Positions 2,696 to 19,956 of a DNA stretch of 21,359 nucleotides are shown one piece after another. The DNA comes from a bacterium Ga0077546 (GTDB taxonomy: Bacteria; Cyanobacteriota; Vampirovibrionia; Obscuribacterales; Obscuribacteraceae). Every line of letters begins with the position of its first letter. The stretch's first letter is position 1. Both the position numbers and the translations under genes were made by a program. The notes below the pieces were generated by a model. That model saw only the letters and a list, made by a program, of their open reading frames with translations. It did not search any database and was not told where the DNA came from. The stretch covers positions 1-21,359 of the forward strand of contig LNEX01000383.1 of NCBI GenBank assembly GCA_001464165.1, written 5' to 3'.

Positions 2696-2700
2696 GGCCG

Positions 2701-2706
2701 CTCCTT
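2701..2706 (-). promoter_or_regulatory. Shine-Dalgarno sequence of arsA
   Basis: AAGGAG on the minus strand lies five bases before the ATG at 2695. It selects this start over the upstream in-frame ATG at 2716, which directly abuts the arsD stop codon. Confidence 0.8.
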
Positions 2707-2716
2707 TACTTAGCAT

Positions 2717-3181: not shown

Positions 3182-3248
3182 GGCTTAGCCTCTTTCTTTG
3201 TATTTGGCAGACTGTCTAATTTTTGGTCTGTTCCTTGCTTTTAAGTAT

Positions 3249-4304: not shown

Positions 4305-4726
4305 TACTTTATCCTGCTTTCTGAGCGCGCTTTTGCCACGCCGATTTGTTCCACAAGATTTTTTACCAGTGTTTCCACTTCGTTTCGAATTTCGCGAACG
4401 CGCTCAATTGGCTGCCCTTTGGGATCTTGCAAAGCCCAGTCTGCTCTCTTTAGCCCTGGAATGGTTGGGCAGGTTTCACCACAGCCCATGGTAATGAGCA
4501 TGTTGGCGTCTGCTGCTAGAGCGTCGGTGAGCAGTTGCGGCTTAACTTCAGAGAGATCGATACCATCTTCTTTCATAATTTGTAGCACCTCTGGATGTAC
4601 CGTGGTACCAGGTTCGGTGCCAGCTGATAGAGCATGAGCTTTGCTTTGATCGCAATATAAATTGAAGAAGGCCGCAGCCATTTGTGAACGGCCAGCATTA
4701 TGGACGCAGGCGAAGATTACTTTCAT
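4304..4726 (-). CDS. arsC: Arsenate reductase, low-molecular-weight tyrosine phosphatase type
   Basis: This 140-residue protein reduces As(V) to As(III) in the cytosol. It has the phosphatase-fold P-loop CVHNAGRS (Cys7 nucleophile, Arg13), a second cysteine group GCGETCP (Cys82, Cys86), and the catalytic Asp in DWALQDPKGQP (Asp101). Cys82 matches the first resolving Cys of thioredoxin-coupled ArsC, but the second Cys is four residues on instead of seven. The reducing partner (thioredoxin, glutaredoxin or mycothiol type) is therefore uncertain. The start is set at 4726 because it makes a classical ATGA overlap with the arsR stop codon. The frame extends upstream to an ATG at 4777, but that would add 17 unconserved residues inside arsR. 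Its stop overlaps the acr3 start. Confidence 0.94.
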   Translation of the reverse strand: MKVIFACVHNAGRSQMAAAFFNLYCDQSKAHALSAGTEPGTTVHPEVLQIMKEDGIDLSEVKPQLLTDALAADANMLITMGCGETCPTIPGLKRADWALQDPKGQPIERVREIRNEVETLVKNLVEQIGVAKARSESRIK

Positions 4727-5067
4727 GGTTTTTTTTGCCCGATGTTTTCTTGACATGTGTTGATTTCGGTACAGCAATCATTTTTTCCTTCGCAGCAGTT
4801 TTCTAAAAGGAAATTGATGAGGTTTTGCATGGTGTCATAGTTGGCGCTGTAGATAATTGAGCGCCCTTCTCTACGAGAAGACAAAAGGCCAGCTTGGCTC
4901 AGTTGCTCTAGGTGGTGAGACATAGTGGCTGGGGTTATCTCCAATTGCGAGGCGATTGTGCCAGCGGCCAAGCCCTGTCTACCTTGCTGTACCAAAAGAC
5001 GAAAGGTTTTTAGCCGTGACTCTTGCGAGAGGGCGGCGAAGGCATTTAAAACTGGTTGAATTTCCAT
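4723..5067 (-). CDS. arsR: ArsR-family arsenite-responsive repressor
   Basis: This 114-residue winged-helix repressor has an AALSQESRLKTFRLL helix, the recognition region ITPATMSHHLEQLSQAGL (44-61) and the wing REGRSIIYS (66-74). It lacks the ELCVCDL metal site of E. coli ArsR. It instead has C-terminal cysteines 91, 92, 98, 99 and 105 (NCCEGKNDCC then TC), like the C-terminal As(III) site described in Acidithiobacillus ferrooxidans ArsR (Cys95/96/102). The ATG at 5067 is chosen because the protein then begins as family members do. The upstream in-frame TTG at 5103 is part of a TTGACA promoter box. No Shine-Dalgarno sequence precedes the ATG. It is the first gene of the operon and presumably autoregulates it through the palindrome at 5066-5081. 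Confidence 0.94.
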   Translation of the reverse strand: MEIQPVLNAFAALSQESRLKTFRLLVQQGRQGLAAGTIASQLEITPATMSHHLEQLSQAGLLSSRREGRSIIYSANYDTMQNLINFLLENCCEGKNDCCTEINTCQENIGQKKP

Positions 5068-5081
5068 ATTTGTACAAATAT
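5066..5081. promoter_or_regulatory. Perfect 16-bp palindrome, probable ArsR operator
   Basis: ATATTTGTACAAATAT reads identically on both strands. It covers the putative arsR -10 box and the first two bases of the arsR start codon. ArsR/SmtB-family repressors bind AT-rich inverted repeats at or near their promoters, so this is the best operator candidate. Binding here would block both polymerase and translation initiation. Direct evidence is only the symmetry and position. Confidence 0.75.
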
Positions 5082-5103
5082 CAAAATGTTTGGGTTGTGT
5101 CAA
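5075..5103 (-). promoter_or_regulatory. Probable sigma70-type promoter of the ars operon
   Basis: On the minus strand, a perfect -35 box TTGACA (5103-5098) is followed after 17 bases by TATTTG (5080-5075), a moderate -10 box. The predicted transcription start falls at about 5068, at or one base before the arsR ATG, which would make a leaderless message. Confidence 0.6.
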
Positions 5104-6218: not shown

Positions 6219-8444
6219 TTGGCCACAATCTCTTATTTTGATGTGGTTGTAAGTAGTGTTCGGCTGTCTAAGAGCGGGCATATCAGAGTAGAAAGTGATC
6301 ATGCAGGATTGATGGAAGCAAAAGCAGAACCTACTTTGAATCCAACAGAAAAACTCGACAGCGGACCTGCTAGGTCTGCCGTTAAGAGGCCTGTGCCAAT
6401 TGGTATTGGTGCTTTTGCTTTGGTTGGCTTGGTAAAGGTTCTGGCTATGGTGCTCTTTTCGTCTGGTTATATGAACCAGCTATTTGTGCCCTTTGTTCAG
6501 CACTTTATCAGTCACTTTGATAATCCCTGGGATTTCTATTTTCAAACCACCGCCCAGCGCGATCAGTTTCCTTATCAGCCGCTGATGCTTTATCTCATTG
6601 GCTTCTTTTGTTTGCCGCTAAAGCTTATTGGCTTTGACAATTCGTATTTGGTCAATTTCTTTATGAAATTGCCTACGCTTTTTAGCGATATTTTGATTGC
6701 TTTTTTATTGGTCAAAATGTTTCCTGCTCGCGTAAACAAAGTCTTTTGGTATTACTTTCTTTCGCCCATTATCCTTTACGCATGTTATGTCCACTCGCAG
6801 CTTGACTTGATACCGACGGCGATACTGTTTTCAGCGGTTTATTTTTTACGCAAGCACGATACTCTCAAGTCTGCACTGCTCTTTGGGTTGGCTCTAGCGA
6901 CTAAGTCTCATGTGGTAGCTGCCCTGCCCTTATGTCTCACCTATATTTATCGCAATCAGAAGCCAAAAATGGCTGCTCTTTATCTCGTTTGTTCGCTGCT
7001 TATGCTTGTTTTCTGGGTTTATCCATTTTTGTCTTCAGCTGGATTTCAAGCAATAGTTTTGCATAATCCGAAGCAGAGCCAGATTTTCGAGTCTTACATA
7101 AGTATTGGTTCAATGCATATTTTCTTGCCAGTTTTGGCTGTGTGCAGCACTTATGTGCGCTTTGCTCTCTATCCTAAAATCAATCTTGATTTGTTAGATG
7201 CCTTCCTCAACATAGTTTTTGCTTTATTTGTGGCACTAATTGTTCCCGCCCCGGGTTGGTACGTATGGATAGTGCCTTTTCTCAGCATTTTCATGATCAA
7301 ATATAGTCGCCGTGATAGTCGAATTGTGCCAGCTGGCATTGCGCTTTCGTGTTTCTATCTATTCTATTTTCTGTTTTTCCATCAGTTTGATTATCCGGCT
7401 ATTATTTTTTGCGATCATGTTTGGAATTTGGCGATACAGGGTGAACACCTCTCTTCTCTCGCCTTTACTCTGCTAGAAGCAACTCTTTTGGCTAATATTG
7501 TGCTCTGCTATCGCACTGGGGTGCGAAGCAATTCTAGCTATAAGCGTGAGAAAGCCATTGTCATTGGCATCGGTGGAGATAGTGGTGCGGGAAAGTCGAC
7601 GCTGCTTAAAGATATAAAATCGTTACTGCAGAATAGGGTCGTAGAGCTAGAAGGCGACGCGGACCACAAATGGGCTAGGCATGATGAAAATTGGAAAGGT
7701 AAAGACATTACTCATCTTGATCCTAAGGCCAATTTTCTCCATAGGCAGGCCGATACGCTCTTCAATCTCAAGCGTGGTCGCAGTGTTGAGCGTGTCGATT
7801 ATGATCATTCAACTGGTGCCTTTACCAGCGCTCGGGTGATCGAGCCAAATGATTTCATTGTGCTCTCAGGTTTGCATACTTTCTACTTACCTAAGTCGCG
7901 TAAAGTGATTGACCTCAAGATTTTCATGGATCCGGAAGCTGAGCTCAAGACTTTTTGGAAAGTCAGTCGCGATCATCGCGAACGAGGCTATACCGAGAAA
8001 CAGGCTAGCGCTCAGATTAGTCGAAGAAAGACTGATGCTGACAAGTTTATTTCGCCTCAAAGAGAGTTTGCCGACCTCTGCATTCGTTATTATCCTCAAG
8101 CTTTACTTGATGAAGGCTCGCTAACAGCCCAGGCCAAACTTTCGCTCAAGTTGTCTCTTAGTTCAAGTATTCAATTAGAAGATTTAGTGCAAGAACTTAT
8201 GGCCAATGGTTTGCTCTTGCATTGGGATTATAGTGAGAATCTATCGAAACAAGATTTGACTCTTTCTGAGCCAGTGCCACCGGCACTTTTGCAAAAATTG
8301 GCGAGTGACTTGATTCCTAATTTAGAAGAGTTAGTTGAAAATAAAATTGAGTGGGCCGAGGATTTACGCGGCTTTGTGCAGTTGATTATTTTGCTTATCA
8401 TCAATGATCTGATGAAAGACAAGGAAGAAATGCATGAAGAGTAA
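6219..8444 (+). CDS. Fusion protein: GT-C-like membrane glycosyltransferase plus uridine kinase/PRK-like domain
   Basis: This 741-residue protein has two unrelated parts. Residues 60-430 are polytopic (about ten hydrophobic segments). The first external loop contains DNPWDFY (101-107) and FPYQPLMLY (117-125), like GT-C glycosyltransferases that use lipid-linked sugars. Residues 445-625 form a P-loop kinase domain of the uridine kinase/phosphoribulokinase type: Walker A GDSGAGKST (453-461), LDPKANFLHRQADTLFNLKRG (starting at 500), a VDYDHSTG loop, SGLHTFY (550-556) replacing the family's EG motif, DLKIFMDP (565-572) and RDHRERGY (584-591). The last 115 residues are helical and unassigned. The start is uncertain: TTG at 6219 has no Shine-Dalgarno sequence, and ATG at 6312 (residue 32) has AGGA only three bases away. 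It is the first gene of the eight-gene cluster and overlaps the next by 11 bases. Confidence 0.8.
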   Translation: MATISYFDVVVSSVRLSKSGHIRVESDHAGLMEAKAEPTLNPTEKLDSGPARSAVKRPVPIGIGAFALVGLVKVLAMVLFSSGYMNQLFVPFVQHFISHFDNPWDFYFQTTAQRDQFPYQPLMLYLIGFFCLPLKLIGFDNSYLVNFFMKLPTLFSDILIAFLLVKMFPARVNKVFWYYFLSPIILYACYVHSQLDLIPTAILFSAVYFLRKHDTLKSALLFGLALATKSHVVAALPLCLTYIYRNQKPKMAALYLVCSLLMLVFWVYPFLSSAGFQAIVLHNPKQSQIFESYISIGSMHIFLPVLAVCSTYVRFALYPKINLDLLDAFLNIVFALFVALIVPAPGWYVWIVPFLSIFMIKYSRRDSRIVPAGIALSCFYLFYFLFFHQFDYPAIIFCDHVWNLAIQGEHLSSLAFTLLEATLLANIVLCYRTGVRSNSSYKREKAIVIGIGGDSGAGKSTLLKDIKSLLQNRVVELEGDADHKWARHDENWKGKDITHLDPKANFLHRQADTLFNLKRGRSVERVDYDHSTGAFTSARVIEPNDFIVLSGLHTFYLPKSRKVIDLKIFMDPEAELKTFWKVSRDHRERGYTEKQASAQISRRKTDADKFISPQREFADLCIRYYPQALLDEGSLTAQAKLSLKLSLSSSIQLEDLVQELMANGLLLHWDYSENLSKQDLTLSEPVPPALLQKLASDLIPNLEELVENKIEWAEDLRGFVQLIILLIINDLMKDKEEMHEE

Positions 8445-9120
8445 AGGCATTCTCCTTGATCTCGATAATACAGTCTATGACTATAAACTGGCGCACGAAC
8501 CTGCCATTGCAGGTGCTTTGCAGTGGCTGGCCTCTGAGCTTGAGCAAACACTTGAAATAGTTGAGGGGCAATATGTCGATTGTCGCATGAAGGTTAATAA
8601 AAACCTACATGGTTTGGCTTCTTCTCATAGCCGCTTGCTTTATTTTCAGGGTATAGCCGAGGCCTTTGGTCGCTTTCCGCATCTGTTGTCTTGTGCTGCT
8701 GAAGATCTTTATTGGCAAATATTTTTTGATAATATGCAGCTGCGCCCAGGCTGCCTAGCTTTTCTTCAATCAGTGGGTTTGCCCGTCGCTATTGTTACCG
8801 ATTTGACTGCGCGCATACAGTTTGAAAAAATCGCGCACCTTAAGATTGATAACTATTTGCAGGCTATTGTTACCAGCGAAGAAAGTGGTCATGAAAAGCC
8901 CCATCCCCGCATGTTTGAGCTGGCGGCCCAGAAGCTCAGCTTGCCCTTAGCTAGTCTTTGCATGATTGGTGATAGCTTTGAGCGCGATATTGAAGGTGCA
9001 CGAAAACTTGGTCTTGACTGCTATTGGTTTAACGCTGAAGGTGGAAATATTGAGCGAGTCTGCGACAGTGTTACTATTTTTGATGATTTTCTCCAGTTGC
9101 TTGAGTTGGTAAGAAAATGA
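8434..9120 (+). CDS. HAD-superfamily (subfamily IA) phosphatase
   Basis: This 228-residue cytosolic protein has all four HAD motifs: LLDLDNTVYDY with nucleophile Asp9 and acid/base Asp11, the motif II threonine in AIVTDLT (Thr122), Lys155 in HEKPHP, and IGDSFERDIEGA with Asp180 and Asp185. A helical cap occupies about residues 18-95, as in haloacid dehalogenase/phosphoglycolate phosphatase-like members. It most likely dephosphorylates a small phospho-sugar or polyol; the substrate is not readable. AGGAAG six bases before the ATG supports the start, which lies inside the end of the upstream fusion gene. Its TGA overlaps the ATG of the aldolase gene (ATGA), so both are probably made together and act in one pathway. 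Confidence 0.88.
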   Translation: MKSKGILLDLDNTVYDYKLAHEPAIAGALQWLASELEQTLEIVEGQYVDCRMKVNKNLHGLASSHSRLLYFQGIAEAFGRFPHLLSCAAEDLYWQIFFDNMQLRPGCLAFLQSVGLPVAIVTDLTARIQFEKIAHLKIDNYLQAIVTSEESGHEKPHPRMFELAAQKLSLPLASLCMIGDSFERDIEGARKLGLDCYWFNAEGGNIERVCDSVTIFDDFLQLLELVRK

Positions 9121-10253
9121 ACTCGATAGAGACTGAAATGGCTGATCTCATAGAAATATCGCGCTTTGCTGGCGAACGTTTTGATTTGGTGCAAGCTGGT
9201 GGCGGCAATACATCGGTCAAGCTTGATGATGGGCGAATTTTCGTTAAGGCCTCAGGTATGGCTCTTAGTGAAGTCAGTTCAGAGTCTGATTTTTGCTTGT
9301 TAGAATGGCCAAGTCTGGTTCAGTTTTTATCTAGCTGCGCCACTAATGCTACTACTGAAATACTGGAAGCTCAGGCGAAAATAGCAGTGGCTGCCGCTCT
9401 AAGCACAGAGTCTTCTAGCAAACGTCGACCATCAATTGAAACGCTGCTGCATTGCTTGCTAGGAAAGTATACGCTGCATACCCATCCGATTGCGGTGGCC
9501 TCCTTGGTTTGTCGTAGTGATTGGCAAAAAATAGTAGCTGATATTTTTGCTACTACTTTTCCACAGTATCAAGATGCTCTCTTTATGGTGCCTTATAGAA
9601 CTCCAGGGCCAGCCTTGGCTGTGGCTCTTCTCCAGCAGCTCAAAGAGAAAAACTGGCAGTCTGCTAAGCCTGATAAGGCAAGTATAGCCATTGTCTTTTT
9701 GGAAAACCATGGGCTGATTGTTGCTGGCGCAAGCAAACAGGTGGTGATGCAGATTACCAATGAAGTTGTCGACAAGTTGGCCAGCCGGCTTACATTTAAC
9801 CTCTACCGCTATAAGTTAGTCAATTTTGCCTCGGCCCTAGTCAATCAAGTTTGTGGTACGAAATGGTTGGCTTATTTGAGTGACGACCATATTTTGCTGG
9901 ATGCCCTGCGACGTGACCCGGCATATTTACTAGCTTCTTGTGCTACACCCGATCAGCCTGTTTATTGCTGGGCTCGAGGTATGGCTTTGACTGAGTTTGA
10001 TAGCCCTGAGGCTGTGCAGTCAGTGGCCGATTATCTAGAGCAGTTTGGTCATCCACCCAAAGTGATAATTTCAGGGGAGCATGTTTTGCTACTTGGTCAG
10101 AGCTTGCGAAAGTGCCGTGAAACTGAAGAAGTTTTGCGTTCTCATGTGATGTTACAACTCGGTGGTGAGCTTGCCACCATGAATTATTTGAACCAGGGTG
10201 AAGTCGATTATTTAAGCGATTGGGAAGCTGAAAAATACAGGCAGACCCTATGA
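9117..10253 (+). CDS. Class II aldolase/adducin-family protein
   Basis: Residues 1-225 of this 378-residue protein form a class II aldolase domain: QAGGGNTSVKL (26-36, phosphate-binding loop), VKASGMAL (43-50), SIET with Glu108, the zinc ligands in LHTHP (His121, His123) and LENHGLIVAG (195-204, third ligand His198). All metal ligands are present, so it should be active. Family members cleave or form ketose phosphates with DHAP (fuculose-1-P, rhamnulose-1-P, ribulose-5-P types). The C-terminal 150 residues (about 226-378) are an extension seen in longer family members such as bifunctional aldolase/dehydrogenases, but I see no Rossmann glycine motif in it. Overlaps of ATGA type on both sides place it in the core of the cluster. 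The aldehyde acceptor is unknown. Confidence 0.85.
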   Translation: MNSIETEMADLIEISRFAGERFDLVQAGGGNTSVKLDDGRIFVKASGMALSEVSSESDFCLLEWPSLVQFLSSCATNATTEILEAQAKIAVAAALSTESSSKRRPSIETLLHCLLGKYTLHTHPIAVASLVCRSDWQKIVADIFATTFPQYQDALFMVPYRTPGPALAVALLQQLKEKNWQSAKPDKASIAIVFLENHGLIVAGASKQVVMQITNEVVDKLASRLTFNLYRYKLVNFASALVNQVCGTKWLAYLSDDHILLDALRRDPAYLLASCATPDQPVYCWARGMALTEFDSPEAVQSVADYLEQFGHPPKVIISGEHVLLLGQSLRKCRETEEVLRSHVMLQLGGELATMNYLNQGEVDYLSDWEAEKYRQTL

Positions 10254-11863
10254 CCCATGTTGTAATTCCGATGTCTGGTTTAGGCGAACGCTTTATCAAG
10301 GCTGGCTACAGGCTGCCAAAACCATTAATTGAAGTAGACGGCAAGCCGATGATTGAGCATGTTGTCTCGATGTTTTCTTCTGACGATAAGTTTACTTTTG
10401 TCTGCAATCAAGAGCATTTGAGCCAGACTGATTTTAATTTGCGTGAGGTTCTCAATCGCGTTGCTCCCAGCGCTGAGATTATTTCGATTGACACCCATAG
10501 AAAAGGCCCTGTTTATGCCGTTGCACAATGTCTCGATCGCATCGAAGAGGCAGAAGCGACTATCGTTAATTATTGCGATTTCTATTCATATTGGAATTAT
10601 TCTGATTTCTTAGCGAAAACTCGCAGCAGAAGAGCTGCTGGCGCTGTAGCAGCCTACCGCAATTTTCATCCTCATATGCTTGGTACAGACAACTATGCCT
10701 TCATAAAGGAGAATAATCTTTGGTTAGAAGCGATTCAAGAGAAGAAGCCATTTACGAACAATCGCATGGCCGAATTTGCTTCTAACGGCACCTACTATTT
10801 TTCTCGTGGCCAGTACATCAAGCATTACTTCCAAGAGCTGATGAAACAAGATATTCAGGTCAACGGTGAATACTATGTCAGTATGGTTTATAACCTAATG
10901 GTGGCTGATGAGCTGCGTGTATTGGTATACGAAGTAGATTATATGCTGCAATGGGGTACGCCACGCGATCTTGAAGAGTACCAGCACTGGTCTGACTATT
11001 TCTCTAGGCTAGCTCAAGAAGGCCTTGAAGATCAGCCTAGGACAGGACAAAAGAGTAGACTTAGTGAGCCTCAGTCTAGTTTGGTTAACACTTGTTTGAT
11101 ACCTATGGCCGGAAAAGGCTCGCGATTTGCTGAGGTTGGCTATTTAACACCAAAGCCGCTGATTCCAGTTTCGAACAAACCGATGGTAGTGCTTGCCTGC
11201 GACAATTTACCGCCGGCATCGCGTTACGTCTTCGTAGCGCAGAAAGAGCACCTCGATAATTCGCAGTTGAAAGGAATTTTGACTGAGCAGTTTCCTAATG
11301 TCAGCGTTGTTGCCATTGATGGTATCACTGAAGGGCAGGCTTCTTCTTGCCAGCTAGGCATTGATGGCGCTGAGCCGCCAATTGACCCTGAGTCTAGTTT
11401 GCTGATCGGTGCCTGCGATAACGGTATCGTTTACGAGCAAAGCAAGTGGCAGGCGCTGATGGCCGATCAAACTATTGATATGGCAGCCTTTAGCTTTCGT
11501 AATCATCCTTCTAGTGAACGCAATCCTCAAATGTTTGGCTGGCTGAAAATTGACGACAAGCCTGCTGAATTTCCTTTGATTACTGGGGTTTCGGTGAAGA
11601 AGGCAATTTCTGAGAACCCGAGAGCCGACCACGCTATTGTTGGTGCTTTCTTCTTTCGCAAAGCGAAGTACTTTGATGGGGAGTTCTATGTAGACAGTAT
11701 GGTCGGTGTGTTGGCACAGCTGGGGCTTAAATGCGTGGCTTTTGAGGTGGTTGATTATATTTCGTTCGGCATACCGAATGATCTCAAAACATTTGATTAC
11801 TGGCAGTCGTTTTTCAAAAAATGCTCGTGGCACGAGTACAAGAAAGAGGTCAGTAAAATATAG
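10250..11863 (+). CDS. Protein with two tandem sugar-phosphate nucleotidyltransferase domains
   Basis: This 537-residue protein contains two complete GT-A-fold nucleotidyltransferase modules. Module 1 (1-255) has IPMSGLGERF (6-15), PKPLIEV (23-29), a metal site in NYCDFY (Asp110) and GTPRDLEEY (236-244). Module 2 (278-530) repeats the order: IPMAGKGSRF (284-293), TPKPLIPV (300-307), ACDNG (388-392, Asp390) and GIPNDLKTF (507-515). Both keep the glycine-rich NTP loop and the Lys of PKPLI, so both may be active. A hydrophilic linker lies at about 256-277. Family members join a sugar or polyol phosphate to CTP, UTP, GTP or dTTP. The gene overlaps the aldolase gene by four bases and ends two bases before the GT2 gene. 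Which nucleotide is used, and whether each module has its own substrate, cannot be told. Confidence 0.87.
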   Translation: MTHVVIPMSGLGERFIKAGYRLPKPLIEVDGKPMIEHVVSMFSSDDKFTFVCNQEHLSQTDFNLREVLNRVAPSAEIISIDTHRKGPVYAVAQCLDRIEEAEATIVNYCDFYSYWNYSDFLAKTRSRRAAGAVAAYRNFHPHMLGTDNYAFIKENNLWLEAIQEKKPFTNNRMAEFASNGTYYFSRGQYIKHYFQELMKQDIQVNGEYYVSMVYNLMVADELRVLVYEVDYMLQWGTPRDLEEYQHWSDYFSRLAQEGLEDQPRTGQKSRLSEPQSSLVNTCLIPMAGKGSRFAEVGYLTPKPLIPVSNKPMVVLACDNLPPASRYVFVAQKEHLDNSQLKGILTEQFPNVSVVAIDGITEGQASSCQLGIDGAEPPIDPESSLLIGACDNGIVYEQSKWQALMADQTIDMAAFSFRNHPSSERNPQMFGWLKIDDKPAEFPLITGVSVKKAISENPRADHAIVGAFFFRKAKYFDGEFYVDSMVGVLAQLGLKCVAFEVVDYISFGIPNDLKTFDYWQSFFKKCSWHEYKKEVSKI

Positions 11864-11865
11864 CG

Positions 11866-12633
11866 ATGACCAGCGATTTAAGTGATATGCACAAAAGCCA
11901 GGCTAAGAATCAGACATTTACGGTGGTAATGCCGTGCTATAACGAATCGAAAAATATTCCTCTTATTCTCAGCCGCTTTGAGAGTATTGCGGCCAACGAT
12001 GTCTCGCAGGTTCAGTTGCTGCTCGTCGATAACGGCTCTACCGATGAGACACCGGCGGTGCTAGCCAGCCAGTTGCCATCATACTCTTTCGCTACATCAA
12101 TTAGGGTGCCAGTTAATCAAGGTTATGGGTTTGGTATTCTTGAAGGTTTGCGTGCATGCGAAAGTGATTATATTGGATGGACTCACGCTGATATGCAGAC
12201 AGATCCAAGCGATATCGTCAAGGCTCTTGAGATAGTCAAACAAGCAAATTATCCAAGAGATATTTATGTCAAAGGATTGCGGCGTGGTCGGCCTTTGGCT
12301 GACTCGTTTTTTACTGGGGGAATGAGTCTATTTGAGACTTTCTACATGGGCACCAACTTGTGGGATATTAATGCCCAGCCCAATATTTTTCATCGGTCTT
12401 TCTTTCAGGCTTGGTCTGAGCCGCCCACTGACTTTGCCTTAGACCTTTATGCCTATTATATGGCTAGGCAGAGGAGTCTAAACATTGTTCGATTTGATGT
12501 GGTATTTCCTCCGCGCATTCACGGTGAGTCAAAGTGGAATACCGGCTTTCAGTCGAAAGTGAAATTTATTAAGCGCACTGTCGATTTTAGTATCAAACTT
12601 AAGCAATCTCTCAATAAATCGCTCAATAAATAA
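11866..12633 (+). CDS. Family 2 glycosyltransferase (DPM/undecaprenyl-phosphate type)
   Basis: This 255-residue protein has a GT2 GT-A fold: VVMPCYNESKNIPLIL (20-35), LLVDNGSTDET (52-62) with Asp55, NQGYGFG (84-90) and the metal-binding HADMQTDP (107-114). A later region INAQPNIFHRSF is like the acceptor region of polyprenyl-phosphate mannosyl/glucosyltransferases, and RIHGESKWN (217-225) lies near the end. No C-terminal membrane helices are present, so membrane contact must be peripheral or by partners. It probably loads an activated sugar onto a lipid phosphate carrier for use by the GT-C proteins of the same cluster, which is inferred. ATG at 11866 lies two bases after the previous stop without a clear Shine-Dalgarno sequence; ATG at 11887 is an alternative. 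Confidence 0.85.
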   Translation: MTSDLSDMHKSQAKNQTFTVVMPCYNESKNIPLILSRFESIAANDVSQVQLLLVDNGSTDETPAVLASQLPSYSFATSIRVPVNQGYGFGILEGLRACESDYIGWTHADMQTDPSDIVKALEIVKQANYPRDIYVKGLRRGRPLADSFFTGGMSLFETFYMGTNLWDINAQPNIFHRSFFQAWSEPPTDFALDLYAYYMARQRSLNIVRFDVVFPPRIHGESKWNTGFQSKVKFIKRTVDFSIKLKQSLNKSLNK

Positions 12634-12648
12634 TTAGGGGAAGTTTGA

Positions 12649-13242
12649 ATGCATTTTATTGCCCACCGTATCAATCAACTGGAACAATTGCGTCAAGTGC
12701 CCGCTTTGTTTGGTTGCGAAATAGATTTGCGAGATCGTGGCGAGCGTTTAATTTTGCAGCATGACCCTTTCAAAGATGGAGAAGATGCAGAGCCATTTTT
12801 TGCTGAGTACAAGAAGCACGGTACATTGATTTTAAACGTTAAGAGTGAGCGTATTGAAGATACTGTTTTGTCCCTGATGGAGAAATACCAAATCGAGAAT
12901 TATTTCTTTCTTGATTCGTCGTTGCCGATGATTGTCAATCTGACCAAGCGCGGGGAGAAGCGTATTGCGCTGCGCTATTCTGAGTTTGAGACAATCGAAA
13001 CAGTGCTCAATTTCGCTGGCTTAGTTGATTGGGTTTGGATTGACTGCTTCACTCGCTTATCGCTCAGCAAGGAAGACTATATGCTGCTAAAGGACGCTAA
13101 CTTCAAGCTTTGTTTAGTTTCGCCTGAATTACAGGGCCGTCCTGAAGATATCGCCGCTTACAAAAAGCAGATGGCTGAAGCTGAAATTGTCATGGACGCC
13201 ATTTGTACCAAGCAACATAATATTGACCTCTGGAGCGCTTAG
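12649..13242 (+). CDS. Small glycerophosphodiester phosphodiesterase-like (PI-PLC fold) protein
   Basis: This 197-residue protein looks like a shortened GDPD/PI-PLC TIM barrel. It begins directly with FIAHR (3-7, His6), then CEIDLRD (23-29, Glu24 and Asp26 as metal ligands), LQHDPF (36-41, His38 as the second catalytic His) and LNVK (62-65). These are the catalytic markers of GDPD enzymes, but the protein is about 50 residues shorter than typical GDPDs (about 250) and has no signal peptide. Small proteins of this kind occur in polysaccharide clusters with unknown substrates. A phosphodiester such as a nucleotide- or glycerol-linked intermediate is a guess. AGGGGA seven bases before the ATG is a strong ribosome binding site. 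The next gene starts one base after its stop. Confidence 0.7.
   Translation: MHFIAHRINQLEQLRQVPALFGCEIDLRDRGERLILQHDPFKDGEDAEPFFAEYKKHGTLILNVKSERIEDTVLSLMEKYQIENYFFLDSSLPMIVNLTKRGEKRIALRYSEFETIETVLNFAGLVDWVWIDCFTRLSLSKEDYMLLKDANFKLCLVSPELQGRPEDIAAYKKQMAEAEIVMDAICTKQHNIDLWSA
13232..13235 (+). promoter_or_regulatory. Shine-Dalgarno sequence of the 13244 gene
   Basis: GGAG lies eight bases before ATG 13244, inside the end of the preceding gene. It favours this start over the in-frame ATG at 13187, which would overlap the preceding gene by 56 bases. Confidence 0.65.
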
Positions 13243-13243
13243 T

Positions 13244-14929
13244 ATGCCTCTGCTTGGCGAAGTAATTAGAGAGCCGGGGCAGGCCGCGCCAGCGGAATAC
13301 AAGAACGTAGATGATAAGCCAATGGCCAGCGATTTGGCCATGGTTGTGTTGCTTGCTGCTGGTTCGTTGTCATTGCTTACGCTGCTAATCAGCTTACGCT
13401 GGTGGCTGGGTCACCCGATGTTGATTTATTGTGATCAGGGCCTCTACGTTCACATGGCCCAGCTTCTTCTTGATGGAAAAGTGCCTTACATAGATATGTT
13501 TGACGTTAATCCACCGTTGGCGATTTATATTCAGATCTTGCCAGTGGTTCTTTCTCGTCTCTTTCATGTCCCTGCACCTTTGAGTTTTTCAATCTATGTT
13601 TCTGCCGTAGAGATTCTTAGTTGCTTAATGATGTTGTGGATTCTGCCTGCTTCTCGGCGAACGGGAGCTGTCGTACTTGGTGCCTGTGCCATGATTGGCT
13701 TTGCCTATTTCAATCAGGTTCAACGGCTGGATTTTGGACAGCGTGAACATATTTTTTGTATCGTTTATGCCCCCTTTCTGCTCTTGCGTTACTTGCGTTG
13801 GCAGGGTATTGAGGTAGGGCGCTGGCCTTGTATTGCTGCTGGAGTTTTGGCTGGTATTGGTTTGGCTCTCAAACCGCATTTTATGCTGATGGCTTGTGCC
13901 CCTGAATTGGTTTGGTGGTTACGCTGTCGTCAGTTTAAGCCTTTGATTGCCACTGAGGTTCGTGCGGCGGTGGCGGTGATTGCAATCTATCTGGTTCATT
14001 TTCTCTTTCTACCGCCTCAAGAACTTAAGGCGTTTTTCAATTTTGTGGTGCCAATCTATAAAGAAGGTTATGAATATTACGTTACTTCTCCTATCTTCAA
14101 TATGGCTAGTTTCTGGCGTGTCGATTTTCTCTTGCTTGCCTTGGCCGCTTTGCTGGCTGTAGTCTTTGCCCCGTCGAGTAGCTTGCCTTTGGCTCTGTGT
14201 GCTTTCTCTTTTATGTCAGCTGTGGTTTTTGTACTGGCCGGTCAGGATTGGTCATGCCATATGATTGCAGTGCGCATGGGAAACACTATGGCTTTGGCCG
14301 TTGAGGCAGCTTTGCTCTATCAGCTACTGCCTCTTAAGGCAATTAGATGGGGGCGGCCAGAATTAGAATTGACTGGTATGGCTGCTTCTGTGGTGGCGCT
14401 CACCGTTGTGGGCGGTGGTATGTATTTAAATTCGGTGCAGACAGTTGAAGAAGAAGAGCTGCGCAACCGCCAGCCTTACCCCTTGGTGCAGGTGGGCTAT
14501 CCTGAATGGGGTATGGGTACGGCTGATGATATGGACTGGTTTGTGTCTACTTGCCTAGAGCACAGTAGCAAGGGTGATTCATTGATCTTTATCTGCGCCT
14601 CGATGGCCCCAGGCTATCCTGTGCTTTTGCAAACTGAGCGCAAGGCCGGTTCGCGCTTCTTGCATGGCATGATGCTGCCGATTTTGTCATTTATCGTTGA
14701 TAAACCAGACCTCGATGCTAAAGCTAAAGAGCGCTTCAAAGGTTACAAGAAGCAAGTTATTGACTGGTATACCGAAGACATTGAGAAGAATCGACCGAAG
14801 CTAATTTTCATACAAGATAATCCAATGAGCTGGGTATTGGGCGATGCTGATTTCATCAATACCAGAATGCCAAACTATAAGGTGGTTGAGCGGAAGGGTG
14901 GGATCAGTGTTTATAAACGCAAAGACTAA
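13244..14929 (+). CDS. Polytopic GT-C-like glycosyltransferase (GT39/ArnT-like layout), first of a pair
   Basis: This 561-residue membrane protein has about ten or more hydrophobic segments between residues 30 and 400 and a soluble C-terminal domain of about 150 residues. The first external loop carries the GT-C signature: YCDQGLYVHMAQLLLDGKVP starting at 62, then YIDMFDVNPPLAIY, with Asp64, Asp84 and Asp87 as candidate catalytic or metal residues. Family members transfer sugars from polyprenyl-phosphate donors on the outer face of the membrane. The soluble tail includes DDMDWFVSTCLEHS and a IFICASMAPGYPVLLQTER region, matched in position by a similar ...ILNGRLLPGFPLYALVERP region in the next gene, so the two are probably paralogs. 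It starts one base after the GDPD-like gene, and its TAA overlaps the next ATG (TAATG). Confidence 0.78.
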   Translation: MPLLGEVIREPGQAAPAEYKNVDDKPMASDLAMVVLLAAGSLSLLTLLISLRWWLGHPMLIYCDQGLYVHMAQLLLDGKVPYIDMFDVNPPLAIYIQILPVVLSRLFHVPAPLSFSIYVSAVEILSCLMMLWILPASRRTGAVVLGACAMIGFAYFNQVQRLDFGQREHIFCIVYAPFLLLRYLRWQGIEVGRWPCIAAGVLAGIGLALKPHFMLMACAPELVWWLRCRQFKPLIATEVRAAVAVIAIYLVHFLFLPPQELKAFFNFVVPIYKEGYEYYVTSPIFNMASFWRVDFLLLALAALLAVVFAPSSSLPLALCAFSFMSAVVFVLAGQDWSCHMIAVRMGNTMALAVEAALLYQLLPLKAIRWGRPELELTGMAASVVALTVVGGGMYLNSVQTVEEEELRNRQPYPLVQVGYPEWGMGTADDMDWFVSTCLEHSSKGDSLIFICASMAPGYPVLLQTERKAGSRFLHGMMLPILSFIVDKPDLDAKAKERFKGYKKQVIDWYTEDIEKNRPKLIFIQDNPMSWVLGDADFINTRMPNYKVVERKGGISVYKRKD

Positions 14930-16626
14930 TGAAATCGACAATTGACAAACGTATATTATTTGTTGCGCTAGCTGCCCTGGCTGTTTTTGCTGCGGGTATT
15001 GCCTATCGAGCTATTTTTTATCGCGATCTTGCTGGGACGATCTGCTATGAAATGGAAGCAGCACGTCGCATACTTCAGGGTCAAGTTCCTTTCCGAGACT
15101 TCTATTTTGATTTGGCTCAACTAGCATCTGCTCATACTGGTGGTGCTCTATTACCAGCAGATTTGCAGACAGGTCTTCCTCTTGTTTTTCCTTTTGCATC
15201 ATTGGCGCTAGGTTCATTCATTGAAGTATCAGCGTTGGCTCTGCTTTCTTTTGCTCTTTGTATTTATATTGTTTCGCTAACTAAGTTAGATCAACGCTGC
15301 CAATTACAGCTTTGGTTTCTCTTGATTGGGTTCGGTCTGGCAAACTTTGCCATGGGCTATTCCTACGGTAGTGCTCAGCACATTTTCGCTCTTCTTCTCT
15401 CTCCTTATTTGTTCTTGCGCCTGACCGCTTGGAGTAGTTTTTCGGTTAACGCCGCCAGGCCGTGGCTTCGCTTTGGCTGTGGGCTCTTGGCCGGTTTTGG
15501 TGCTTCCTTTGATGTCTGGTTTATTTTGGTGCCCCTAGCCATTGAAACTGTCGAATTTCTTAGTCGTCGCTTGGGAGGCAAAGCGAATAGGTTTGCCTAT
15601 GAGTTACTTGGGCTGATAATTTCATTTTGCATCTCTTGGTCGTATCTTTTGCGGCTTGATCCAGCAGCTCTGAGAGAGCTTGTTGATTGGATTATTCCAC
15701 TCAAAATTACCAGCTACTATTTAGATCAGATTGCCTACTTTGGTCTTGGATCTACCCCAGACCGTCGAGATGTAATTTATTTTTGTGCAGCAGCAGCGAT
15801 CCTCAGTTTTGGCATAGTCAATCGCGTGGCTCTGTTGCGACCCATTTTTACTCTAATGATGGCCGGATTCGTTCTCTATCAAATAGGCATGAGCGGCTTG
15901 AGTACCGACATCTTGCTTGTCGTTTGGGCCTCTTGCATGAGTTTTGCTTTACAGTTTTGCTATTTGCTTGAAAGTAGCTTTTTCTCGAGAATCTGTCGAA
16001 GATACCCAAGACTTTCCTACCGTCGTTTGCCGAAGGTTCAGATATTTGCTCTGGTTGCATTGTGCTCTATTAGTTTATTGTCTCTGGCTACCGCTGAGAT
16101 ACTGCAGCGTCGTGAAAATGTCACTGTATTGACTGGACCTAATGCAATTGATCCAACCTATTTAGAGTTGACTGATGCTTTCGCTAAGTTTTCTCAGTCT
16201 GGTGAATCTATTATGATTCTAAATGGCCGTTTGTTGCCAGGTTTTCCCCTCTATGCCTTAGTTGAGAGGCCCATTGCGGGCTATTTCATTAGTACTGAGG
16301 CCTTTAGTTCACTGGCTAATATTGAGTCTCATGATTTAAAGGATGATGTGCTTGGTAAGCCTTTTGGTTGGATTGCAGCGACTAAGAAAAAAATGTTTGA
16401 TCGACTGCGGTGTGACATTGCGAAGAGTCAGCCTGGAGTTATCGTGGTTGAAGGTGGGCAGACATTTGATGGCTTAGAAAAGGCCAACGTAATTGCTCAG
16501 ATCTTGGCAAATTACACCTCTCAGGGAGAAGCCCGCTATCACTCACGCTGCATCGGTGCTAAAGAATTTGCCGATTGGAATTATCGCTATAACGTTTATG
16601 AGCGTCACGGTAAAGGTCAGAATTGA
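14929..16626 (+). CDS. Polytopic GT-C-like glycosyltransferase, second of a pair
   Basis: This 565-residue membrane protein has the same layout as its upstream neighbour: a hydrophobic start, a first loop with YEMEAARRILQGQVPFRDFY (starting at 40) and FDLAQL, about ten more hydrophobic segments and a soluble C-terminal part from about 400. The segment ILNGRLLPGFPLYALVERP corresponds to the neighbour's CASMAPGYPVLLQTER. In the usual D-x-G-x-Y position it has YE (Glu41), and the NPP sequence of the neighbour's loop is replaced by DLAQL. Catalysis is thus uncertain: it may use a Glu, accept another substrate, or be a partner subunit. The one-base TAATG overlap implies coupled translation with the upstream gene. 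It is the last gene of the cluster; no hairpin terminator is visible in the 85 bases after it. Confidence 0.75.
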   Translation: MKSTIDKRILFVALAALAVFAAGIAYRAIFYRDLAGTICYEMEAARRILQGQVPFRDFYFDLAQLASAHTGGALLPADLQTGLPLVFPFASLALGSFIEVSALALLSFALCIYIVSLTKLDQRCQLQLWFLLIGFGLANFAMGYSYGSAQHIFALLLSPYLFLRLTAWSSFSVNAARPWLRFGCGLLAGFGASFDVWFILVPLAIETVEFLSRRLGGKANRFAYELLGLIISFCISWSYLLRLDPAALRELVDWIIPLKITSYYLDQIAYFGLGSTPDRRDVIYFCAAAAILSFGIVNRVALLRPIFTLMMAGFVLYQIGMSGLSTDILLVVWASCMSFALQFCYLLESSFFSRICRRYPRLSYRRLPKVQIFALVALCSISLLSLATAEILQRRENVTVLTGPNAIDPTYLELTDAFAKFSQSGESIMILNGRLLPGFPLYALVERPIAGYFISTEAFSSLANIESHDLKDDVLGKPFGWIAATKKKMFDRLRCDIAKSQPGVIVVEGGQTFDGLEKANVIAQILANYTSQGEARYHSRCIGAKEFADWNYRYNVYERHGKGQN

Positions 16627-16991: not shown

Positions 16992-18377
16992 CTATGTCTT
17001 TTCCCAAGTGGCTCCATCGGCGCTGTCCATGACATTTACGCCAATTTCAGTCAGGCTCTTGCGAATCAGATCTGAGGAGGCATAGTCTTTTCTTTCTCGT
17101 GCTTCTTTGCGCAAGGTAAGAATCAAGTCGATTAGTTTGGCACCAGTGGCGGTGTCTAGCTCTTGTCTTGTGTCAGTCATGGTCAAGCCCAATACTTTGG
17201 CATAGTGAACCAGAGTGCTGGCTAGATACTGCTTGTCGGCTGCTGATTTGGTCTGAGTGATACCGTCGGCCAATTGATAGAGATGCGAAATCGCAATAGC
17301 TGTATTAAAGTCGTTGTTCATTGCTGCGGCAAATTCAGCTTTGAATGTGTCAGCAGTTTTTTGTGCCGCCGCGCTCGGGGCAACCGCTTCATTCTCATTT
17401 AATCCGTGTTCGAAACTGGCGGCTCGCAGCAAGCGTTGAATTCCGGTGCTGGTGGCTTGCAAACTTTCAATGGTGAAGTCAATCGGATTTCGATAATGCG
17501 ATTGCAGAATAAAGAGGCGAATGGTATCGGCCGAAAATGTTGCCAGCAAGTCTCTAATGGTTTTGAAATTGCCCAGTGACTTAGCCATTTTCTCTGAATT
17601 GGTTTGCACAAAGCTATTGTGCAGCCAATAGCGGGCCATGGGTTGGCCATGTAGAGCTTCTGACTGAGCTATTTCGTTTTCATGGTGAGGGAAAACAAGG
17701 TCTTCTCCACCGCAGTGAATGTCGATGGTTTCACCCAGTATGCGCTTGACCATGGCTGAGCATTCCAGGTGCCAGCCCGGACGGCCTCTACCCCAGGGGC
17801 TAGGCCAACCCACAAAATCAACCGGGCTCTTTTTCAAGTGGGCCAGGGTTTCTTGAGCCACAGCTTGCTCGCGCGAGCCCACTAGCAGTTGCTCTAAGTT
17901 TTGCTTGCCTAGTTTGCCGTAGTCTTTGAAAGAAGCCACGTCAAAATAGACATCGCCACCAGCTTCATAGGCATGGCCACCATCAATTAGGCCCTGGGTG
18001 AAGGCAATCATCTGAGTGATGTACTCAGTCGCTCTTGGCTCGAAATCTGGTGATTCGACATTGAGTGAGTGCATGTCGTGCCAGAAGGCATAGGTGTACT
18101 GGCGTGAGAGCTTCTCTGGTGTAATACCTAACTCTTTGGCGCGCTTGATGATTTTGTCATCGACATCGGTGATATTGCGCACATAGATAACGTCGTAGCC
18201 AACAAAGCGCAGATAGCGTTGCACTACATCCCAGACTATGGCCATCCGGGCATGACCCAAGTGGCTTAAATCATAGACGGTGGGGCCGCAGGCGTACATT
18301 CTGACGACGTTGTCCTGCAGTGGAACAAATTCTTCTTTCGTGCCAGAAAGAGTATTGAAGACTTGAATCTTATTCAT
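16992..18377 (-). CDS. cysS: Cysteinyl-tRNA synthetase
   Basis: This 461-residue class I synthetase charges tRNA-Cys in the cytosol. It has the zinc ligand in YACGPTVYD (Cys30), the HIGH variant HLGH (39-42), NITDVDDKI (68-76), GRPGWHLECSAM with Cys206, HCGGEDLVFPHHENE (221-235) and the KMSKS-loop variant KMAKSLGNF (263-271). The stretch before GRPGW reads VDFVGWPSPWGRGRP, about a dozen residues shorter than the usual FALWK...SPWG insert. The overall length is normal. The start lies 12 bases after the gltX stop without a clear Shine-Dalgarno sequence, which suggests it is the second gene of a gltX-cysS operon. Confidence 0.97.
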   Translation of the reverse strand: MNKIQVFNTLSGTKEEFVPLQDNVVRMYACGPTVYDLSHLGHARMAIVWDVVQRYLRFVGYDVIYVRNITDVDDKIIKRAKELGITPEKLSRQYTYAFWHDMHSLNVESPDFEPRATEYITQMIAFTQGLIDGGHAYEAGGDVYFDVASFKDYGKLGKQNLEQLLVGSREQAVAQETLAHLKKSPVDFVGWPSPWGRGRPGWHLECSAMVKRILGETIDIHCGGEDLVFPHHENEIAQSEALHGQPMARYWLHNSFVQTNSEKMAKSLGNFKTIRDLLATFSADTIRLFILQSHYRNPIDFTIESLQATSTGIQRLLRAASFEHGLNENEAVAPSAAAQKTADTFKAEFAAAMNNDFNTAIAISHLYQLADGITQTKSAADKQYLASTLVHYAKVLGLTMTDTRQELDTATGAKLIDLILTLRKEARERKDYASSDLIRKSLTEIGVNVMDSADGATWEKT

Positions 18378-18389
18378 AGATTTAGCTGC

Positions 18390-19853
18390 TTACTTGTGAG
18401 TCAGGGCCGCTTCCAGACGGGATTTTACTCGCTCGGCGCCTAGTATTGAAATAATTGAACCAAGGTCTGGACCTTGAGTCTTTCCTGATAAGGCGGCTCG
18501 AACGGGCCAGTAGAGTTCTTTTCCTTTGAGGGAAATTTCTTTACCGAAGGCGTCTACCGCCTTTTTACATCCTTGATGGTCGTCCCACGGCATGGTACCA
18601 AGGGCATTTAACATGGTGTTGAGAACTTTCTTGGCACTGTCAGAGCTGAGGACATCGCGGGCAATGTCTTCTGGAATGTTGAGCGGTTCAAAATAGAATT
18701 GTACTGCCGCAGTCAAGTCAGATAGTGTGGTAAGCCCTTCTCGCACTGAGGCTATCATGGCCGCTATCTCGGCCGGCGTGTAAGCACTGGTATCGTGGGC
18801 GGTGAGGAATGGCATTGCTCTGCTGACAATTAAGTCGAGGGGCAAGCTTCTGATGTAATGGCTGTTAAACCAGTTGAGGCGAGCAACATCGAACACCGCC
18901 GGGCTTTTCGATACTTTGTCTAAATCAAAGACTGCGGCAGCTTCTTCTAGGTCGTAGATTTCTTTGCCTTCAGGGTGGGTAAAGCTCATTTGCGCTAGAT
19001 AGTTGATGATAGCTTCAGGCATATAGCCTTGGGCTCGATAATAATCAATATGCACGGTTTCGCCGTGTTTGCGCTTAGAGAGCTTCTGATGTTCGATATC
19101 AAAAATCAAAGGCGCATGGGCAAATTCTGGGGCCTTTTGATTCATGGCCTCATAGATCAGCAGTTGCTTGGCGGTGTTGTGAATGTGGTCTTCGCCACGA
19201 ATGACATGGGTCATTTTCATGTCGATATCATCGATGACAACGGCGAAGTTGTAGATGGCGACACCGTTAGACTTTACGATTACCATGTCGCCGCCCAAGT
19301 CTGACGTATCAATGGCGATTTCGCCTTTGATGTGATCGTGCCACGACACTACCTGTGGTTCTTCAACGATAAAACGAACCGAGGGAATGCGACCTTGTTC
19401 TTCGAACTGTTTGCGCTGCTCTTCGCTGGTTTCTCTGCCTCTATTGTCATAGCGAGGGGCGGAATTGGTTGCTTTTTGCTCTTCTTTGAGAGCAGCCAAT
19501 TCTTCCTGGGTGGCATAGCACAAATAGGCTTTGCCACTGCTGATCAAGTGATTGGCCATGGTGCTGTAGTGGTCAATTTTTTCGGTCTGGCGATAAGGTG
19601 CATAAGGGCCACCAATATCGAGACCTTCGTCCCAGTTCAGGCCTAACCACTTCAAGCCATCGATGATGTCTTTGGTGTAAGTCTCTTTTGAGCGCTCTTC
19701 GTCTGTGTCTTCAAGGCGAAGAATAAAGGTGCCGTTATGTCTCTTAGCGTACAAGTAATTGTAAAGAGCTGTGCGAGCGGTACCAACATGCAAATTGCCT
19801 GTTGGGCTTGGCGCTATTCGAACTCGGACATCTGTTTTCATAACCAGAGGCAT
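18390..19853 (-). CDS. gltX: Glutamyl-tRNA synthetase
   Basis: This 487-residue class I synthetase has the HIGH-type motif in PSPTGNLHVGTARTAL (HVGT at 22-25), RLEDTDEERS (46-55), a GEDHIHNTAKQ region at 220-230 and the KMSKS-type loop KLSKRKHG (257-264). The anticodon-binding helices follow to the end. It charges tRNA-Glu, and possibly tRNA-Gln if the organism lacks GlnRS; nothing in this window tells which. Two starts are possible, ATG 19853 and ATG 19841 (residue 5, which would give the common MKTDVRVRIAPSPTG beginning). Neither has a convincing Shine-Dalgarno sequence, so the longer one is given. The 89 bases upstream separate it from rlpA, which is transcribed in the same direction. Confidence 0.97.
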   Translation of the reverse strand: MPLVMKTDVRVRIAPSPTGNLHVGTARTALYNYLYAKRHNGTFILRLEDTDEERSKETYTKDIIDGLKWLGLNWDEGLDIGGPYAPYRQTEKIDHYSTMANHLISSGKAYLCYATQEELAALKEEQKATNSAPRYDNRGRETSEEQRKQFEEQGRIPSVRFIVEEPQVVSWHDHIKGEIAIDTSDLGGDMVIVKSNGVAIYNFAVVIDDIDMKMTHVIRGEDHIHNTAKQLLIYEAMNQKAPEFAHAPLIFDIEHQKLSKRKHGETVHIDYYRAQGYMPEAIINYLAQMSFTHPEGKEIYDLEEAAAVFDLDKVSKSPAVFDVARLNWFNSHYIRSLPLDLIVSRAMPFLTAHDTSAYTPAEIAAMIASVREGLTTLSDLTAAVQFYFEPLNIPEDIARDVLSSDSAKKVLNTMLNALGTMPWDDHQGCKKAVDAFGKEISLKGKELYWPVRAALSGKTQGPDLGSIISILGAERVKSRLEAALTHK

Positions 19854-19920
19854 TTTAGCACTAAGGTTCGGCTGAACAAGCTTTAGCTCTTGACGTGCTT
19901 TACACTTCTACCGTTAAGAT

Positions 19921-19956
19921 AGCCAATCAGTTAGCCAATTAGTTAGCGATCAGCTG
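19921..19956. repeat. Short tandem repeat, 12-bp unit, two good copies and one degenerate copy
   Basis: AGCCAATCAGTT (19921-19932) is followed directly by AGCCAATTAGTT (19933-19944), 11 of 12 bases identical, and then by a diverged third copy AGCGATCAGCTG. The repeat spans the last codons and stop of rlpA and the gap before gltX. Confidence 0.6.

Follow-up and report, generated by a model that had tools for sequence, protein, structure and literature searches.

A tightly packed series of kinase, phosphatase, aldolase, nucleotidyltransferase and glycosyltransferase genes raises the question of which sugar is built, from what, and where it is delivered. Such a series occupies positions 6219-16626 of contig LNEX01000383.1 (assembly GCA_001464165.1) of bacterium Ga0077546, a member of the Obscuribacteraceae (Cyanobacteriota; Vampirovibrionia); the whole 21,359-nucleotide stretch analysed is referred to as the window. 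Comparison with relatives in bacteria and phages suggests a mobile nucleotide-sugar cassette, common to many organisms, that draws on ribulose-1,5-bisphosphate (RuBP), a reading to which we give about an even chance, and for which we infer every reaction, the order of the third and fourth of its seven steps and the identity of the sugar. The genes are as follows.

6219..8444, + strand: gene 1, a membrane GT-C glycosyltransferase domain (about residues 50-430) fused to a kinase of the phosphoribulokinase (PRK) type (about residues 440-741)
7536..8441, + strand: kinase half of gene 1, with the P-loop and the THLxPxAN, YDHxTG, RD..RG and FIxPQ motifs all kept
8434..9120, + strand: gene 2, HAD phosphatase (HAD family, E = 4e-19)
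9117..10253, + strand: gene 3, class II aldolase (PF00596, E = 3.8e-16; 59.9 bits, cut-off 22.2)
10250..11863, + strand: gene 4, two fused nucleotidyltransferase (NTase) domains (about 10250-11080 and 11087-11863), each carrying a GxGxRF...PKP signature
11866..12633, + strand: gene 5, GT2 glycosyltransferase (PF00535, E = 3e-19)
12649..13242, + strand: gene 6, putative TIM barrel resembling glycerophosphodiester phosphodiesterase (GDPD) and PI-PLC, from predicted structure and fold match
13244..14929, + strand: gene 7, multi-pass membrane protein, paralogue of gene 8
14929..16626, + strand: gene 8, multi-pass membrane protein, paralogue of gene 7

These eight same-strand open reading frames (ORFs) fill the region. 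Gene 1 overlaps the HAD gene by 11 bases, the HAD/aldolase and aldolase/NTase junctions overlap by 4 bases each, and genes 7 and 8 by 1 base; gaps of 2 bases (NTase/GT2), 15 bases (GT2/GDPD) and 1 base (GDPD/gene 7) separate the others, the last with the gene 7 ATG at 13244, since the TTG start at 13187 given in the ORF list would overlap. Because the genes overlap or lie at most 15 bases apart, all eight are likely, on this spacing, to be carried on a single transcript. An earlier note on this DNA had described such an eight-gene operon with overlaps or gaps of 15 bases or less, which is borne out; its families also stand (kinase, HAD, class II aldolase, double NTase, GT2, GDPD-like), except that gene 1 is a GT-C/kinase fusion and not a plain kinase. 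Gene 1 starts with TTG at 6219, and the in-frame ATG at 6312 is a possible alternative, since pLDDT stays below 50 over the first 47 residues of the model.

A Pfam/NCBIfam scan placed the kinase half of gene 1 in the PRK family (E = 5.7e-36), and the kinase family profile scored 203.8 bits against Synechococcus PRK versus 98 against the best uridine kinase. The domain combines the PRK fold with the nucleotide-site and ribulose-5-phosphate (Ru5P)-site motifs of the family. The membrane half has the GT-C fold and resembles GPI-mannosyltransferase. A GT-C/kinase fusion is also present in the Gram-positive genus Paenibacillus (proteins P0098, P0100, P0107 and P0110), one of these being named as a glycosyltransferase 87 family protein.

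For gene 2, the nearest named model was the RuBP 5-phosphatase NF053830, which was matched by all four cassette HADs scanned and had the lowest best E-value among the families listed. The gene 2 score of 145.4 bits lies under the curated cut-off of 330, and on sequence the protein is for this reason not assigned to that family. Gene 3 carries, beside its Pfam match, the catalytic Glu and three metal-binding His of class II aldolase/adducin proteins: among 135 sequences, the Glu and the HxH were present in every one and the NHG His in 133, with gaps in the other two. The nearest NCBIfam models were aldolase/dehydrogenase fusions, including rhamnulose-1-phosphate aldolase, all far under cut-off. 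The L-ribulose-5-phosphate 4-epimerase family carries Asp at the position of the aldolase Glu, and an epimerase role was rejected, the invariant Glu arguing for an aldolase instead. With this residue kept throughout, an aldol step on the resulting ketose-1-phosphate is still likely.

Two stretches of gene 4 matched the NTP transferase Pfam family (E = 2e-16). Among PDB sequences, gene 5 scored higher with chondroitin synthase, over its first half only, followed by dolichol-phosphate-mannose synthase (DPMS) and ArnC over most of its length; it is without the C-terminal membrane domain of these polyprenyl-phosphate sugar transferases, which it resembles full-length. Gene 6 gave no Pfam or NCBIfam match at E 0.1 or better. 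Its predicted structure is a GDPD-type TIM barrel (mean pLDDT 94.5; query TM at most 0.74 to solved GDPDs), and E24, D26 and H38 were invariant, and H6-R7 kept in at least 90%, among 72 aligned sequences. The modelled barrel together with these HR, E/D and HD residues points to a GDPD/PI-PLC-like enzyme. A search gave at least 7965 GDPD-like protein clusters at E <= 0.001, among the 7998 candidates it could score.

Recurrence of the gene set was assessed in a genome scan for NTase relatives. It yielded 125, and the best 80 served as NTase-seeded loci for a search with six partner profiles built from four cassettes (GT-C and PRK, both for gene 1, HAD, aldolase, GT2 and GDPD-like). All six were found in 61 of the 80 loci, and in 45 of the 51 full-flank loci, defined by at least 7.5 kb on both sides of the NTase. 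Six full-flank loci fell short of the set: GT2 alone was missing from four in Roseomonas/Pseudoroseomonas (L013, L016, L034, L074), GT2 and GDPD were missing from L032, and L075 retained nothing but the aldolase. The kinase fusion (K) was followed by HAD in 67/70; the commonest order was NTase-GtrA-GT2-GDPD-K-HAD-aldolase (32/80 loci), and GtrA was present in 52/80. This co-location is far beyond chance, as judged without a formal null. A different seed gave a similar picture: a GDPD search, of the class of genome G002, was positive in 24 of 194 genomes, and 20 regions were taken, without G001, G002 and the distant G192 and G202 (in G072, G066 and G043 one stop lies inside the GDPD match). NTase, kinase, HAD and aldolase were all held by 14 of the 17 strong-hit regions, the other three being cut at contig ends (L166, L167) or at the end of the stretch taken (L176); four of the 17 overlap with the NTase-seeded sample, coming from the genomes of L006, L007, L009 and L010. 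The three distant GDPD hits adjoin NTases, with no kinase or aldolase detected.

Relatives of the cassette span Obscuribacterales, Pseudomonadota, Acidobacteriota, Omnitrophota and two E. coli plasmids. The window itself comes from a Candidatus Obscuribacterales/Melainabacteria relative, and its nearest loci, L005-L008, have NTases 91-83% identical to its own. In a tblastn search against plasmids, these families turned up as a group on Azospirillum brasilense p5, in Hirschia baltica and an E. coli IncR plasmid. In the neighbourhood analysis proposed by the earlier note, the core thus recurs, but the eight-gene unit as a whole does not, since genes 7 and 8 were found, among the loci profiled, only in L005-L008 and GtrA is usual elsewhere.

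Several variants were seen. Five Roseomonas/Pseudoroseomonas cassettes (L013, L016, L033, L034, L074) show no detectable GT2 beside the NTase, and at L175 and L178 NTase and GT2 form one ORF, joining activation to lipid loading. The E. coli copy L003 (NZ_CP145712.1 6022-14984) is complete and sits on an IncR plasmid of 33 kb; another E. coli plasmid has a near-identical copy. Two of 25 Yersinia genomes were positive, one merely for a distant GDPD. In Erwinia mallotivora, the DNA upstream of the cassette encodes rmlBDAC-type functions, a rhamnan synthesis protein and an ABC exporter. Two viral-labelled contigs (L147, L152) hold a bacterial-type cassette, as prophage cargo or mislabelled bacterial DNA.

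The fate of the kinase half bears on its product. In an alignment of 68 fusions, scored at 31 motif positions chosen from the conserved list of that same alignment, six of 67 rows had a decayed kinase (6-19 of 31 positions; next lowest score 28), four from picocyanobacteria and two from Nitrosomonas. RuBisCO was searched in 69 genomes, leaving out L031, L038, L040, L052 and L059, and was found at E<1e-100 in 10 and not in 59; this cut was set after the scores were known, and the weaker matches in L018, L071, L074 and L080, all above the Pfam cut-off, were counted as negative. RuBisCO was present in 5/6 genomes with a decayed kinase versus 5/61 with an intact one (Fisher p 1.5e-4, not corrected for kinship). 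Among 57 genomes without RuBisCO at this cut, a single decayed kinase was found, in L025, the sixth decayed row, a probably incomplete Prochlorococcus genome with a separate PRK-family gene. A separate gene of this kind was present in all six decayed-kinase genomes, and also in 7/10 other genomes of that search. In a tree of the GT-C half, the decayed rows fell in two places, the Nitrosomonas pair and a group of cyanobacteria that includes the intact Phormidesmis fusion L014, forcing at least two losses; a label-shuffle on this tree gave no significant clustering of decayed rows. The loss pattern is compatible with a kinase that makes RuBP, a compound already produced by these cells.

Phage relatives were collected in two IMG/VR scans, of 58 loci and then of the best 80 of 138 relatives, the second overlapping the first in part and adding 79 new locus ids. 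Their core consists of the NTase with a short aldolase, a mini-HAD and a mini-GDPD, with the kinase present or absent; aldolase, mini-HAD and mini-GDPD accompanied the NTase in 39/53 strong-NTase loci of the first scan and 64/79 new ids of the second. A GT61-protein profile matched 41/53 and 51/79 phage loci, Pfam GT61 being found in the one protein scanned, and in one phage the GT61 gene adjoins the module. Named isolates with the core include Synechococcus phages Bellamy and S-SM2, whose annotations call these genes hypothetical, aldolase or pyrophosphorylase. In phages the HAD and GDPD belong to subfamilies other than those of bacteria, with the enzyme slots unchanged, from which we infer that NTase, aldolase, HAD and GDPD form one donor-making pathway, with GT2, GtrA and GT-C as the delivery part.

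The first phage set covered 50 of the 58 viral records, leaving out contigs below 15 kb. For records of at least 40 kb, psbA/D was present in 0/8 with the kinase and in 9/11 without it; this table omits G318 (bacterial-type cassette) and G330 (weak NTase) and includes G327, which has a bacterial-type NTase. Mutual exclusion of kinase and psbA/D, predicted beforehand from this set, was then followed in the 34 records of at least 40 kb among the 79 new ids, several of them near copies: 31 had the kinase only, 2 psb only, 1 neither and none both (Fisher p 0.005). One of the 31 (G362) carries a kinase fragment at a contig end, and the record with neither (L214) is cut near the expected kinase position.

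These observations are consistent with a seven-step pathway. The PRK-type kinase of gene 1 would convert Ru5P to RuBP, and the HAD phosphatase would strip the 5-phosphate to give ribulose-1-phosphate. The class II aldolase would act on this ketose-1-phosphate, in the simplest case by a retro-aldol/aldol exchange at C4, through dihydroxyacetone phosphate (DHAP) and glycolaldehyde, yielding a stereoisomer such as L-xylulose-1-phosphate, which the double NTase with the GDPD-like enzyme would turn into a nucleotide-activated pentulose. The GT2 would load the pentulose onto undecaprenyl phosphate, the lipid-linked sugar would be flipped, by GtrA in most relatives, and GT-C enzymes (the half fused to the kinase, perhaps also genes 7 and 8) would transfer it to an outer-face glycan. 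Entry is probably from Ru5P to RuBP rather than by assembly from DHAP and an aldehyde, because the kinase resembles PRK and its loss goes with hosts that make RuBP; de novo sugar synthesis from DHAP and an aldehyde, as the earlier note had it, is hence not the best fit. Its suggested transfer to a lipid phosphate fared better, as a resemblance to polyprenyl-phosphate-sugar enzymes is seen in GT2 and also in the GT-C half of gene 1. A precedent for the second and third steps is found in the RuBP 5-phosphatase and ribulose-1-phosphate aldolase of haloarchaea, as outlined in the relevant part of PMC9700705. With its NTases, GT2 and GT-C, the cassette looks suited to activating a sugar and passing it outward, not to degrading it; together with the RuBP kinase reading and the haloarchaeal parallel, this makes a pentulose the favoured product. 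L-Xylulose, the C4 epimer of ribulose, is a candidate because of this relationship and its presence in Yersinia enterocolitica O:10. That occurrence is given in the section of PMC11380512 on this serotype.

In a more specific version, which we hold to be doubtful, RuBP is the committed precursor of an activated ketopentose (ribulose or L-xylulose) for surface glycans in many bacteria and large phages, and activation would get round the ketose problem by a new means, relocation of the phosphate to C2. NTase domain 1 would form a nucleoside diphosphate (NDP)-1-ketose, the GDPD/PI-PLC-like enzyme would shift the phosphate to the anomeric C2 via a 1,2-cyclic phosphate, and NTase domain 2 would form the NDP-2-ketose donor. 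The kinase would be dispensable in Calvin-cycle organisms, or in phages with such hosts, because RuBP is already there.

Other readings of the same genes were considered. The aldolase might condense DHAP with a free aldehyde, the kinase and HAD then adjusting the phosphates of that product and not those of Ru5P; its conserved Glu and metal ligands would suit this, as would the place of rhamnulose-1-phosphate aldolase among its nearest, far-below-cut-off models. This route is unlikely, given a kinase that is PRK-like in motifs and fold and has been lost or is absent in the setting of RuBP-making cells, and a cassette with no obvious aldehyde-making gene. The kinase might also act on another ketose or on a nucleoside 5-position, with its loss in autotrophs and absence from cyanophages reflecting lineage history and not RuBP supply. 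Independent events are few, because near copies occur among the phage records and the kinase-less psb phages form a single group; the kinase is retained in five RuBisCO genomes, and many kinase-less phage records are short and also without psb. Against this stand the separate losses in picocyanobacteria and Nitrosomonas, the kinase-less Synechococcus phages, and the restriction of decay outside RuBisCO genomes to the one Prochlorococcus with its own PRK-family gene, and we regard a different kinase substrate as rather unlikely.

The NTase product could alternatively be a nucleotide-linked ketose-1-phosphate that donates pentulose phosphate in the manner of teichoic acids, giving a phosphate-linked polymer, with GT2 and GT-C handling another sugar. 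Such a polymer would suit a module that combines two NTase domains with an enzyme of phosphodiester type, but most of the GT2 is similar to polyprenyl-phosphate glycosyltransferases and a GT61 glycosyltransferase adjoins the module in a phage, which makes it improbable. A catabolic shunt for RuBP or ribulose-1-phosphate, placed beside glycan genes by chance, appears scarcely credible: taken by themselves, HAD and aldolase would correspond to the catabolic route of haloarchaea, yet most loci also have NTase, GT2 and GDPD linked to them, and the phage loci keep the NTase, 41/53 with the GT61-profile match.

Several observations weigh against the RuBP-fed pentulose pathway itself. The kinase falls below the NCBIfam PRK subfamily cut-off (NF005655, 191.9 bits versus 236), as the HAD does with its own. 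RuBisCO genomes L014, L026, L043, L072 and L073 keep an intact or near-intact kinase, and Yersinia G003 and Erwinia G004 keep the cassette kinase despite a second strong PRK-family gene (C13:340170-340793, E 2.5e-71, and C27:19108-19731, E 1.3e-75, respectively). One of the nine psb phages, G309, has a PRK hit below cut-off (4.8e-4), and the phage pattern may be one event only, since the kinase-less psb phages form one related group. GtrA (PF04138) is absent from the window and was found in 0/4 related genomes. The activation step requires unproven chemistry, because ketose-1-phosphates are not anomeric phosphates. No organism was found combining the cassette with a known pentulose glycan, and the O-antigen cluster description of Y. 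enterocolitica O:10, in the portion of PMC11380512 that covers it, names none of the cassette genes and no L-xylulose-making gene.

Among the closest known systems are gtrABC-type O-antigen modification operons, with their lipid-linked sugar logic. Like these, the cassette has a DPMS-like GT2 of GtrB type, GtrA in most relatives (52/80) and a lineage-variable large membrane protein by the aldolase; unlike them, it carries its own sugar-building enzymes and an extra kinase-fused GT-C, and the window and 4/4 related genomes are without GtrA. The cassette kinase differs from Calvin-cycle PRK in its fusion to a GT-C membrane domain and its occurrence mostly in genomes without RuBisCO (59/69). With the haloarchaeal non-carboxylating pentose bisphosphate pathway the cassette would share a HAD RuBP 5-phosphatase and a class II (FucA-type) ribulose-1-phosphate aldolase side by side; there, however, RuBP comes from ribose-1,5-bisphosphate isomerase and is degraded, as far as the pathway section of PMC9700705 describes it, whereas the PRK-type kinase and NTases of the window point to synthesis, the HAD homology being at family level only. 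The gene set is a variant of nucleotide-sugar and lipid-linked-sugar systems, with a sugar-building core for which no matching pathway was found. At title and abstract level in the open-access literature, with subscription papers and preprints outside this scope, no description of the gene set was found and no characterised pathway matched it one to one, in agreement with the undescribed pathway that the earlier note had proposed.

If the RuBP-fed reading is correct, RuBP would have a role beyond CO2 fixation and archaeal nucleoside breakdown, and PRK-like genes in bacteria without RuBisCO would be accounted for. A very common yet unnamed gene set (see the 7965 GDPD-like clusters) would be defined, and a donor pathway would be provided for the ketopentoses of bacterial and chlorovirus glycans, xylulofuranose being reported in the latter in the corresponding passage of PMC9614988.

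Genes 7 and 8 share sequence similarity (54 bits). For gene 7, a protein named as Candidatus Melainabacteria gave a match of 100% identity. In the L006 and L008 homologues, 6-8 hydrophobic segments were counted for gene 7 and 5-7 for gene 8. Neither protein had a Pfam or NCBIfam match at E 0.1 or better or any match among PDB sequences, and a further Pfam scan gave no family for gene 7 and just two weak ones, at chance level, over 10 homologues. None of these searches showed the GT-C fold that the earlier note had given both proteins. Among the loci profiled both were found only in L005-L008, the close relatives of the window; in other cassettes differing large membrane proteins adjoin the aldolase, and 0/7 of those scanned reached a Pfam cut-off. 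Genes 7 and 8 are possible candidates for acceptor-specific GT-C enzymes.

A second, kinase-less cassette (L004, L102, L103, L104, L181-L183) was found on plasmids and genomes, with fused or separate NTases, a GDPD-like gene, usually a HAD and often WavE. In Azospirillum, Scandinavium, P. alcaligenes and other plasmids it shares with the window distant NTases (about 25-31%), GDPD-like proteins (about 28-33%) and a HAD; unlike the window, it has no kinase or aldolase among annotated genes, and the HAD is of beta-phosphoglucomutase type in two scanned. E. coli O97 reportedly contains a xylulose structure, which motivated an E. coli search; an O97-type xylulose cluster found no support there, the cassette occurring in just 2/5426 genomes of the collection, both times on plasmids. 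A fructose product for the second cassette was dropped as unsupported, the Scandinavium cassette having no DNA-level match in the E. coli collection; K4 fructosylation in E. coli is assigned to kfoE in the relevant passage of PMC7925653.

Upstream of the operon, the - strand of the window (884-5103) carries ORFs resembling an arsenic-resistance operon, named from sequence as arsA-, arsD-, Acr3-, arsC- and arsR-like, and two small genes also lie upstream. Downstream, cysS-, gltX- and RlpA-like genes, similarly named, occupy 16992-20842 on the - strand, convergent with the operon.

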